Assembly (NCBI RefSeq): GCF_019968905.1
Contig: NZ_CP079946.1
Location: 1,240,001-1,304,000, forward strand
Origin: Corallococcus sp. EGB
GTDB lineage: Bacteria; Myxococcota; Myxococcia; Myxococcales; Myxococcaceae
Direction: 5' to 3'
Length of the DNA: 64,000 nt
The translations under genes were made by a program, and so were the position numbers. Of the stretch, positions 10,575 through 15,583 are shown one piece after another; position 1 is the first letter of the stretch; every line of letters begins with the position of its first letter. Under the pieces are notes generated by a model. That model was not told the origin of the DNA, searched no databases, and worked only from the letters and a program-made list of their open reading frames with translations.

Positions 10575-11030
10575 TCAGCGCGCCCGCGCGGCGCCTGGCC
10601 CGTGCATCGACGGCAGGCGCTGCTGCTGCGTGCCGATGAGCGGCTGCTGGAGCTGATACGTGCCGTTGAGCGGCTGCTGCAACTGGTACGTGCCGTTGAG
10701 CGGCTGCTGAAGCTCGTAGGTCCCGATGAGCGGCTGCTGCAGCTGGTACGTGCCGACGAGCGGCTGCTGAAGCTCGTACGTCCCTTCGAGCGGCTGCTGG
10801 AGTTGATACGCGCCCGCGAGCGGCTGCTGGAACCCGCTCTCCGCGGGCGGCTGATACCAGTAATTGTTCCAGAAGGTGTTGTCGCCGGATTCACTTGTCA
10901 GTGATTGCGCGTTGTCCGGGCGCTGTGAGTCATTGCCCTCCGGGACGACCACTTCGTCCTGCTGCGCCAGGACCATGGCCGGACCGGACGCGAGCGCCAC
11001 TGCCAGGGTCACCAGGGTGCCAGTGCGCAT
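10575..11030 (-). CDS. small secreted protein made of seven 10-residue QQPLxGTYxL repeats
   Basis: Unrecognised exported protein of 151 residues. MRTGTLVTLAVALASGP with MVLA is a signal peptide, probably cleaved before Gln-Gln. A short acidic region and an aromatic stretch (FWNNYWYQPP) precede seven contiguous decapeptide repeats with consensus QQPL-x-GTY-[QE]-L, where x is A, E, V, I or N. A basic tail ends the protein. AGGAGGT just upstream fixes the ATG at 11030. The alternating polar and hydrophobic pattern with Gly-Thr-Tyr suggests stacked beta-strands or turns, for example a fibre or surface-adhesion element. No function can be assigned. It is convergent with the metallopeptidase gene and divergent from the beta-helix lipoprotein gene. 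Confidence 0.8.
   Translation of the reverse strand: MRTGTLVTLAVALASGPAMVLAQQDEVVVPEGNDSQRPDNAQSLTSESGDNTFWNNYWYQPPAESGFQQPLAGAYQLQQPLEGTYELQQPLVGTYQLQQPLIGTYELQQPLNGTYQLQQPLNGTYQLQQPLIGTQQQRLPSMHGPGAARAR
10620..10829 (-). repeat. coding tandem repeat, 30-bp unit x 7
   Basis: The plus-strand core GAGCGGCTGCTG recurs exactly every 30 bases, beginning at 10638, 10668, 10698, 10728, 10758, 10788 and 10818. The repeats are directly adjacent without spacers and encode the QQPLxGTYxL units, so this is a coding minisatellite, not a CRISPR array. Third-position variation between copies shows that they are not a very recent expansion. Confidence 0.95.
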
Positions 11031-11378
11031 GGGAACCTCCTTCCTTGGGGCGCGGGAGAGGGAACCGCGCCGCGACCTGCTTCTCAAGATGACCGCGCGG
11101 GTGGGCTCCGGCGAGCGCCTCGCACTGCTCCCTGGCCTGCTTGCGCGCCAGTCATGAAGCCGTGCGTCATTCGCATTTCGGACACATTGCGGACAATAGG
11201 CTTACCGCGTGCACGTGCTTTTCAAGCACGGCCAAAGGGGCGCCGCGTCAAAACACAAACGTGAAACTTGTGCTTGTCGTCAGTGTGTCTTTGCTCCGAG
11301 CATGCCGCCTTCCCGCTGCTTCGCGGGTCGCGGGTGCTTCCCCGTGGCCCAGGTGGAGCGGCCTCGCGGAGGAAAGAC
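11031..11378. other. 348-bp divergent intergenic region with a small perfect hairpin
   Basis: No gene is visible. The right half is relatively AT-rich. CGTGCTT-TTC-AAGCACG at 11214-11230 is a perfect 7-bp inverted repeat with a 3-base loop. TAGGCT at 11197-11202 could be a -10 element for the beta-helix lipoprotein gene, but no good -35 is spaced with it. The hairpin could be an operator or a leader structure for the plus-strand operon. All roles are inferred. Confidence 0.4.
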
Positions 11379-14216: not shown

Positions 14217-14489
14217 TCAGGCGGCCGGCGACGGGGGCTGGGGCTCCTCCAGCCCCACGTTGCCGGACGCGCGGAGGACGACGGTGGTCATCACCACCGC
14301 CGTGCCCGTGACGCTGCGCAGGGCCGCCGGCATGGACGCGGAGCTGGAGGCGCCGACGAACGCCACCTGCATGCCCGGCGCGGCGCGCCCCGGAAGAAGC
14401 GCAGCGGGTTGATAGGTGCGGGCGGTGTGCTCTCCCAGCTTCACCAGCGCGAAGCCCAGCAGGCCCGCGAAGAAGCTGACCTGGGGCAT
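14217..14489 (-). CDS. hypothetical protein, 90 residues
   Basis: Unrecognised small protein with codon use typical of the window (third positions almost all G or C) and GAAGG 5 nt before the ATG. It has a hydrophobic stretch near the N-terminus (SFFAGLLGFALVKLG) and another amphipathic Ala/Val-rich segment near 60-76, and it ends in a Pro-rich tail. It is convergent with the diheme lipoprotein gene (3 nt apart) and divergent from the small peptide gene at 14653. It could belong functionally with that peptide locus, but nothing in its sequence shows this. Confidence 0.55.
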   Translation of the reverse strand: MPQVSFFAGLLGFALVKLGEHTARTYQPAALLPGRAAPGMQVAFVGASSSASMPAALRSVTGTAVVMTTVVLRASGNVGLEEPQPPSPAA

Positions 14490-14580
14490 CTTGCCTTCGG
14501 ACAGCGCGGCGGTGGTCCGCGGACCCCAACCCCCTCGCGGGTCCCGCGCCGTGTTCCCGTCCGCGGGATGCCCCACATCG

Positions 14581-14609
14581 TTGCGACGCACTCCCCGGCC
14601 CCCTAGGCT
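14581..14609 (+). promoter_or_regulatory. candidate sigma-70-type promoter for the peptide/protease locus
   Basis: TTGCGA (14581-14586), a 17-base spacer and TAGGCT (14604-14609) lie upstream of the small peptide gene. The predicted start near 14616 leaves a leader of about 37 nt containing GGGAG at 14641-14645. The -10 match is partial, so this is a candidate only. Confidence 0.45.
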
Positions 14610-14652
14610 TCCTGACCGGTTTTCCCATCAATCCACTGCCGGGAGTGTTCCC

Positions 14653-14844
14653 TTGAAATTCACGAGCAAGGACGTGTCGAAGCTGCTGGACGAAGTGAGC
14701 GGATCCGAGGACCTCATCGGGTACGCCTGCGCCACGTCGTATCTCAACGGCCAGCACTACACGTGGAATGGCACGCAGTGGGTGGGCACCTACTTCCCGG
14801 AGCTCAAGTATCCGGTGGGCGAGGACTCGAGCAGCTCCTGCTAG
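14653..14844 (+). CDS. 63-residue Cys-terminated peptide, possible RiPP-type or protease-substrate precursor
   Basis: Small ORF with a TTG start, GGGAG 7 nt upstream and window-typical codon use. An N-terminal part that looks helical and leader-like (MKFTSKDVSKLLDEVSGSED) is followed by an aromatic-rich part with five Tyr, two Trp and one Cys (IGYACATSY, HYTWNGTQW) and a C-terminal tail GEDSSSSC ending in Cys63. There is no signal peptide. A subtilisin-like gene starts 25 nt downstream on the same strand. The leader/core look plus an adjacent protease recalls ribosomally made, post-translationally modified peptides, but no modifying enzyme or exporter is visible nearby. I do not recognise the family; function is inference. 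Confidence 0.65.
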   Translation: MKFTSKDVSKLLDEVSGSEDLIGYACATSYLNGQHYTWNGTQWVGTYFPELKYPVGEDSSSSC

Positions 14845-14869
14845 GCGGTGTTTCAAGGCCCTGCCTCCC

Positions 14870-15583
14870 ATGAAGGTCGCCATCGTGGACAGCGGTGTGT
14901 CGGTGGGCTTCCTTCGCGGGGCGGGGCTGTCGCTCGCCGGGGCCGCGAGCTTCACGGTGGACCGGGAGGCGCGGCGCCTGGAGTCCCGGGTCCATTCGCG
15001 GGAGGAGCTGGCCGCGTGGTGTGACGGCGGCTCCGTGCTGGAGGACCTGGAGGACACGCACGGCCACGGCACCGCGGTGCTGAGCATCCTGCGGGGACAG
15101 GGCCGTCCTCCTGACGACGTGGCGTGGTACGTCGCGCGCGTGCTGGATGGGCGGATGCGCGGCGACTCGCTGTGCCTGCTGGAAGCGCTGGAGTGGCTGA
15201 CGCGGGACGTGCGGCCGGACCTCATCAACCTGAGCCTGGGCACCGTGGGACGCGCCTTCGAGGCTCCGCTCACCGCGCTGTTGGACCGCGCGGTGGAGCA
15301 GGGCAGCCTGGTGCTCTGCGCCGCGGGGCCCGTGGCCGGCCTTCCGTCCGGGATGCCGTCGGTGGTGACGGTGGCGGACGCGGCGACGGCCCACGCCCTG
15401 CGCCGCGGCGACGTCGTGGACCACGTCGAACACGCGGCCTCGGTGCGGCTGTACTCGGACGGAGCCTGGTGCGAGCGCCCCCTCACGAGCAGCTACGCCT
15501 GCGCGCTGGCGGCCGCGCAGGTGCTGCGCGAGGGAGGTCCTCCCGGCTGGCGGCGCGTCACCGCGTCACGGCGGACGCGGTGA
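14870..15583 (+). CDS. small leaderless subtilisin-like (S8) protease-fold protein
   Basis: A 237-residue S8-like protein without signal or pro-peptide, hence probably cytoplasmic. Catalytic-type residues are visible: Asp7 in AIVDSG, His66 in DTHGHGTAVLSI, and Ser207 or Ser208 in PLTSSYACALAAA. DLINLSLG (117-124) matches the conserved strand before the specificity pocket. The usual oxyanion-hole Asn (AAGN) is replaced: the segment reads LCAAGP with Pro154. It follows the 63-residue peptide gene by 25 nt and is convergent with the catalase gene. The likely role is maturation or recognition of the neighbouring peptide. Alternatively it is a degenerate protease acting as a binding protein. Confidence 0.78.
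   Translation: MKVAIVDSGVSVGFLRGAGLSLAGAASFTVDREARRLESRVHSREELAAWCDGGSVLEDLEDTHGHGTAVLSILRGQGRPPDDVAWYVARVLDGRMRGDSLCLLEALEWLTRDVRPDLINLSLGTVGRAFEAPLTALLDRAVEQGSLVLCAAGPVAGLPSGMPSVVTVADAATAHALRRGDVVDHVEHAASVRLYSDGAWCERPLTSSYACALAAAQVLREGGPPGWRRVTASRRTR

Follow-up and report, generated by a model that had tools for sequence, protein, structure and literature searches.

Within the window, by which we mean the whole 64,000-nucleotide stretch of the Corallococcus sp. EGB genome analyzed here, a small gene on the forward strand (positions 14653 to 14844) encodes a precursor-like peptide of 63 amino acids. Exactly 25 nt separate its stop codon from the ATG at 14870 of a second forward-strand gene (14870 to 15583), which encodes a 237-amino-acid S8 (subtilisin-like) protease that is probably the leader protease for the peptide. 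The peptide gene starts with TTG, and a Shine-Dalgarno-like GGGAG (14641 to 14645, forward strand) lies 7 nt 5' of this start. The sequence-only reading had described a TTG-started frame with five Tyr, two Trp, and a Cys end, and the sequence bears this out, the C-terminus being SSSSC. The predicted leader, MKFTSKDVSKLLDEVSGSEDLIG (14653 to 14721), and the predicted core, YACATSYLNGQHYTWNGTQWVGTYFPELKYPVGEDSSSSC (14722 to 14841), which is the variable part of the peptide, meet at a putative cleavage site. The peptide has no signal sequence. It matched no Pfam family at E values up to 5, propeptide and inhibitor families included, and a phage search gave no relatives. A scan for promoter and terminator consensus sequences, which is uninformative in a GC-rich genome, found none.

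The list of open reading frames also offered a 142-amino-acid frame from an upstream GTG, which we rejected since conservation begins only at the TTG: identity is 68 to 93% in the peptide-coding part versus 39 to 83% across the 150 nt upstream. The start residue of the paralogues is identical to that of the TTG-started frame. Orthologues start with TTG, GTG, or ATG, and most retain the sequence GGAGTG(C/T)TCCC 5' of the start.

The peptide is full length in 12 of 16 Corallococcus genomes, its own included, with 59 to 90% identity in the eleven others, and in all 12 the same S8 gene lies downstream, after 24 to 26 nt in nine genomes and 106 to 160 nt in three. The pair occupies one syntenic site, with a c-type-cytochrome-like gene on one side and a catalase gene on the other; four of the 16 genomes retain these flanks and lack the pair. 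Indels among the peptide orthologues are whole codons; the peptide has a dN/dS of ~0.59, and the S8 protein one of ~0.41. A coarser codon-position test on the peptide was not significant by itself (P = 0.13) and was replaced by a tree-aware count, which gave 50 synonymous and 82 nonsynonymous changes, a synonymous share of 38% versus the 24% expected (P = 2.6e-4). This synonymous excess (P = 0.0003 when rounded) indicates that the peptide frame is under purifying selection. An unconserved frame, which the sequence-only reading had named as one outcome that would speak against it, is therefore not what these genomes contain. Because the peptide occurs in 12 genomes and always 5' of the same S8 gene, the pair is confirmed as real and more than a chance arrangement.

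The S8 protein lacks both a signal peptide and a propeptide and begins at the catalytic-Asp strand, as in a cytosolic-type enzyme; it matches the Pfam family Peptidase_S8 (PF00082; E = 2.9e-6, above the cutoff); the earlier description of a signal-less S8-like protein 25 nt after the peptide thus stands. Its AF2 model has a subtilisin fold (pLDDT, 85.5; best Z score to subtilisins, 19.2). Alignment with the other subtilases of the genome places the codons for catalytic Asp7 and His66 at 14888 to 14890 and 15065 to 15067 (forward strand). Catalytic Ser208 (15491 to 15493, forward strand) was assigned from its T/S-S-x-A-C-A motif, its invariance, and the fold, the motif lying beside the GTSMA-type sequences in the subtilase alignment but offset from them. 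All three residues are invariant across the members of this S8 subfamily that we examined. At the position where subtilisins have the oxyanion-hole Asn, which the other subtilases of the host genome retain, the window protein has Pro154 (15329 to 15331, forward strand). The Pro is present in all 12 S8 proteins of the window type, and Gly or Ala takes its place in the related proteins of the gene cluster described below. In subtilisin, loss of the oxyanion-hole Asn strongly slows catalysis. Since this Asn has been lost, slow turnover is suggested, and it is plausible that the protein would cleave slowly or only once per molecule.

The window peptide belongs to a larger precursor family, of which we collected 59 distinct sequences. 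Members occur in 18 of 195 Myxococcota genomes, as one to three tandem copies together with orphans, and number approximately three to six per Corallococcus genome. In the host genome, weaker leader matches led to two sister precursors at ~1.688 Mb of the chromosome (G000:C1), and an orphan precursor lies at 5.450 Mb. Most of the invariant columns of the family lie in residues 1 to 23 (M1, S9, L11, L12, V15, G17, D20, and G23), where the paralogues share the leader consensus MRYTRK[DN][VI]SELLxxVxGxPDVxGF..., and on this basis we divide the precursors into a leader and a core. The N-terminal half had been called leader-like from the single peptide, and the concentration of invariant columns there supports that view. 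Trp occurs at least once in every one of the 59 precursors, and each also has ED near its end and a Cys in its last 12 residues. They thus form a ribosomal precursor family with a conserved leader and a variable core, as in ribosomally synthesized and posttranslationally modified peptide (RiPP) pathways; each precursor would consist of a conserved leader of ~23 residues and a variable, aromatic core containing Ser and Cys. None of the NCBIfam and PADLOC models tested was matched by the precursors. Orphan precursors of 77 amino acids were also found at five further loci (L036, 9416 to 9649; L038, 9643 to 9876; L046, 9607 to 9840; L049, 9647 to 9880; and L052, 8667 to 8900), none of them near an S8, fusion, or ABC exporter gene of this family. 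An isolated 79-amino-acid relative ending in CEDGAAYNGEDMSSCYSHP (L041, 9738 to 9977) lies far from the cluster in G051, a genome of genus g8, probably Archangium.

Approximately 430 kb from the window pair, the host genome carries, with the two sister precursors, a fuller cluster of a kind in which one to three tandem precursors are followed by a gene for a 994-amino-acid GH57-DUF1611 fusion protein, an ABC exporter gene, and an S8 gene whose product is 53 to 56% identical to the window S8 protein. Only the fusion and exporter genes lie between the sister precursors and the S8 gene in the host genome. The N-terminal part of the fusion is GH57 branching-enzyme-like (Pfam E = 8.8e-13; PDB 2b5d, E = 1e-43) and retains both catalytic motifs, with Glu in WLPECAF and Asp in FDTELFGHWWHEG. 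Its C-terminal part resembles DUF1611, with a P-loop GTDTVQGKFTT; the Pfam match (E = 3.8e-5) is just under the cutoff in P0003 and over it in the host genome's own copy, and a profile comparison with PDB 2g0t gave E = 3.5e-8. A predicted fold for this C-terminal half was discarded (mean pLDDT, 51). Separate stand-alone GH57 and DUF1611 proteins are also encoded in the host genome. A domain search of the exporter identified ABC membrane and ATPase domains but no C39 peptidase, so that a separate protease would be needed. The clusters therefore link both an exporter and a putative leader protease to the precursor, as RiPP pathways do, whereas the window locus has the protease alone. No enzyme that defines a known RiPP class (lanthipeptide, sactipeptide, YcaO, and others) lies beside the cluster precursors. 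PADLOC defense models matched neither the peptide, nor either S8 protein, nor the fusion, and we accordingly rejected an antiphage defense system; a plasmid search gave no relatives of the cluster S8 protein.

The cluster was found in named records of Corallococcus species and of Archangium violaceum, and a genome of a further genus (G026) has the identical gene order with a divergent precursor. The fusion, the S8 subfamily, and the precursors are confined to the same 18 of the 195 Myxococcota genomes, apart from a fusion fragment in G018, and in 15 of the 18 the precursor, fusion, and cluster S8 genes share one contig. The 30 proteins of the S8 subfamily comprise 12 of the window type and 18 of the cluster type, and each of their genes either adjoins the gene for a window-type peptide or belongs to a cluster. 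The sequence-only reading had regarded S8 homologues without an adjacent peptide gene as evidence against it; no subfamily member of that kind turned up among the 195 genomes, aside from three (G003, G015, and G057) in which contig ends interrupt the cluster. The proposed linkage to a single S8 subfamily likewise holds for every window-type peptide. In a phylogenetic tree, the window-type S8 proteins form one clade apart from the cluster S8 proteins (support, 100/100); the row L103 in this tree is the G026 cluster protein, and its label "sat" derives from a sequence motif alone. The host genome has two genes of the subfamily, both accompanied by precursors, one in the window pair and one in the cluster. 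A truncated contig of G018, a genome of another genus, retains the end of a GH57-DUF1611-type gene and, after it, an ABC exporter gene (L116, 3277 to 5907); no S8 gene was found downstream of the latter. This locus is possibly a related pathway with a different protease.

No lanthipeptide, radical SAM, YcaO, or transporter gene had been noticed near the pair, and indeed no other biosynthetic gene, modification enzyme, or exporter adjoins it. The idea of a self-contained minimal peptide-protease module was not supported, however, since the same families form a fuller cluster elsewhere in the genome, and for this reason a satellite is the better description of the pair. We consider it likely that the two genes form a satellite within a RiPP-like pathway in which the S8 protein acts as leader protease while modification and export are provided in trans; as neither function is encoded beside the pair, action in trans is an inference. 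In this scheme, the precursor leader would be bound by the fusion enzyme of the cluster, and the core would then undergo modification, for which glycosylation (GH57) and carboxylate activation (the DUF1611 P-loop) are candidate reactions. The adjacent cytosolic S8 protein would cut after the leader, near residues 17 to 24, inside the cell, and the ABC protein of the cluster would export the product. Binding, modification, and export are the least secure of these steps. To our knowledge, GH57 and DUF1611 are not RiPP-modifying domains, and the core might therefore be left unmodified. Cleavage of the peptide by its neighboring protease, as previously suggested, agrees with the S8 family assignment and the gene linkage, and the peptide is probably the S8 substrate. 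The product may be a signal, an antibiotic, or a toxin-like effector.

The clearest rival to the satellite reading is that the pair is self-sufficient, with the S8 protein releasing an unmodified C-terminal signal or effector fragment and the distant cluster being unneeded. The pair does retain a diverged leader and an S8 clade to itself, and its isolation from other biosynthetic genes would suit such an arrangement. We nevertheless judge self-sufficiency unlikely: there is no exporter at the locus for a peptide that lacks a signal sequence, the sister precursors sit with the fusion enzyme and an exporter, and the pair has never been seen in a genome without the cluster. The last point, that all 12 genomes with the satellite also have the cluster, was rejected as proof of dependence and is weak evidence within the genus, because 15 of the 16 Corallococcus genomes have the cluster; one genome of the genus (G014) lacks the precursor, the fusion, and the S8 gene.

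Two further rivals concern the role of the S8 protein. Subtilisin propeptides fold or restrain their protease, and the window peptide could be a separately encoded propeptide or inhibitor rather than a substrate, which would account for an S8 protein that begins at its catalytic domain and for a peptide gene immediately 5' of it in 12 of 12 genomes. Several features make this very improbable, namely, the lack of any Pfam propeptide or inhibitor match, paralogous peptides that adjoin the exporter, reach three copies per S8 gene, or lie as orphans far from any S8 gene (L036, L038, L046, L049, and L052), and a short constant leader followed by a variable remainder. Alternatively, without its oxyanion-hole Asn the S8 protein could be inactive as a protease and, as a pseudo-protease, serve as a carrier or recognition partner that binds the leader without cutting it. 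The replacement of this Asn in both clades, set against its retention in the other subtilases of the genome, is what favors this idea, but the invariant Asp, His, and Ser would be unexpected if catalysis had been lost, and we regard it as the least probable of the explanations considered.

The closest precedent for the satellite reading is QhpE, a subtilase that removes a 28-residue leader from QhpC in the cytoplasm, before ABC export and in a single-turnover, suicidal manner (Nat Commun 2021, PMC7876137). It acts in quinohemoprotein amine dehydrogenase biosynthesis, with protease and substrate encoded in one operon (PMC7876137). The system described here likewise combines a small leader-bearing precursor, a cytosolic-type subtilase gene beside the substrate gene, and, in the cluster, an ABC exporter. 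Among NCBIfam models, that of QhpE (NF049966) comes nearest to the window S8 protein, but the scores of 58.9 bits for this protein and 68.2 for the cluster S8 protein fall below the cutoff of 165, and other subtilases of the host genome score equally high; we therefore rejected membership, and the likeness is one of anatomy. Moreover, where the Qhp pathway uses a radical SAM enzyme (QhpD) and a flavin enzyme (QhpG), the present system has a GH57-DUF1611 fusion as its putative modifying enzyme, and the window precursor has no family match. NisP, ElxP, and PatA are S8 leader proteases of RiPP pathways (PMC10885120), and the dedication to precursor processing proposed for the window protein would resemble theirs. 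Its fold matches include the RiPP-processing EpiP and PagA structures. Unlike those three enzymes, however, it has no secretion signal, propeptide, or oxyanion-hole Asn, and no lanthipeptide or cyanobactin enzymes accompany it.

The two parts of the fusion resemble GH57 glucan branching enzymes (PDB 2b5d, 3n8t, and 1ufa) and DUF1611 P-loop proteins (PDB 2g0t), respectively, but differ from them in being joined in one protein and linked to precursor peptides. In prochlorosin-type systems, scattered precursors share one modifying enzyme. The present family is similar in that its precursors, several in number, share a leader, vary in their cores, and in some cases lie at a distance from the enzyme gene; it differs in the enzyme, in the small number of precursors per Corallococcus genome, and in one satellite having its own protease. 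Literature searches on DUF1611 with RiPPs, GH57 with lanthipeptides, and branching enzymes with precursor peptides, which were incomplete in coverage, yielded no description of the system. Pathways that combine a precursor, a leader protease, and an exporter are already known, while the enzyme combination and the satellite layout are apparently undescribed.

More tentatively, and as a possibility on which we would not yet rely, the system may constitute a new RiPP class. The GH57-DUF1611 fusion, in which a glucan-branching-enzyme-like domain adjoins one that resembles P-loop ATPases, would modify cores containing Trp, Ser, Cys, and acidic residues, for example, by sugar attachment or by activating the carboxylates of the conserved Glu-Asp. 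Leader removal would fall to a near-stoichiometric S8 protease with a defective oxyanion hole, and the window would hold a satellite of precursor plus protease. If correct, the satellite reading itself would point to an undescribed family of myxobacterial peptide products, whose putative modifying enzyme belongs to a type that has not been linked to the modification of peptides. Mining by known enzymes would probably miss this family, since no Pfam, NCBIfam, or PADLOC model tested recognizes its precursors. The satellite reading would also offer a simple pair of genes with which to study how a subtilase that lacks the oxyanion-hole Asn cleaves a leader, and it would suggest why a satellite precursor carries its own protease, because a slow or single-use protease must come with its substrate.

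Two other features of the window were observed. A reverse-strand remnant of an SDF-family sodium:dicarboxylate symporter gene of ~370 bp lies at 14217 to 14591, and related genomes have an intact 427-amino-acid symporter at the same place (L044, 5169 to 6452). Farther upstream, a reverse-strand frame of 170 amino acids (10575 to 11087) encodes a repetitive, secreted-looking protein with repeated QQPLxGTYxLQ units.
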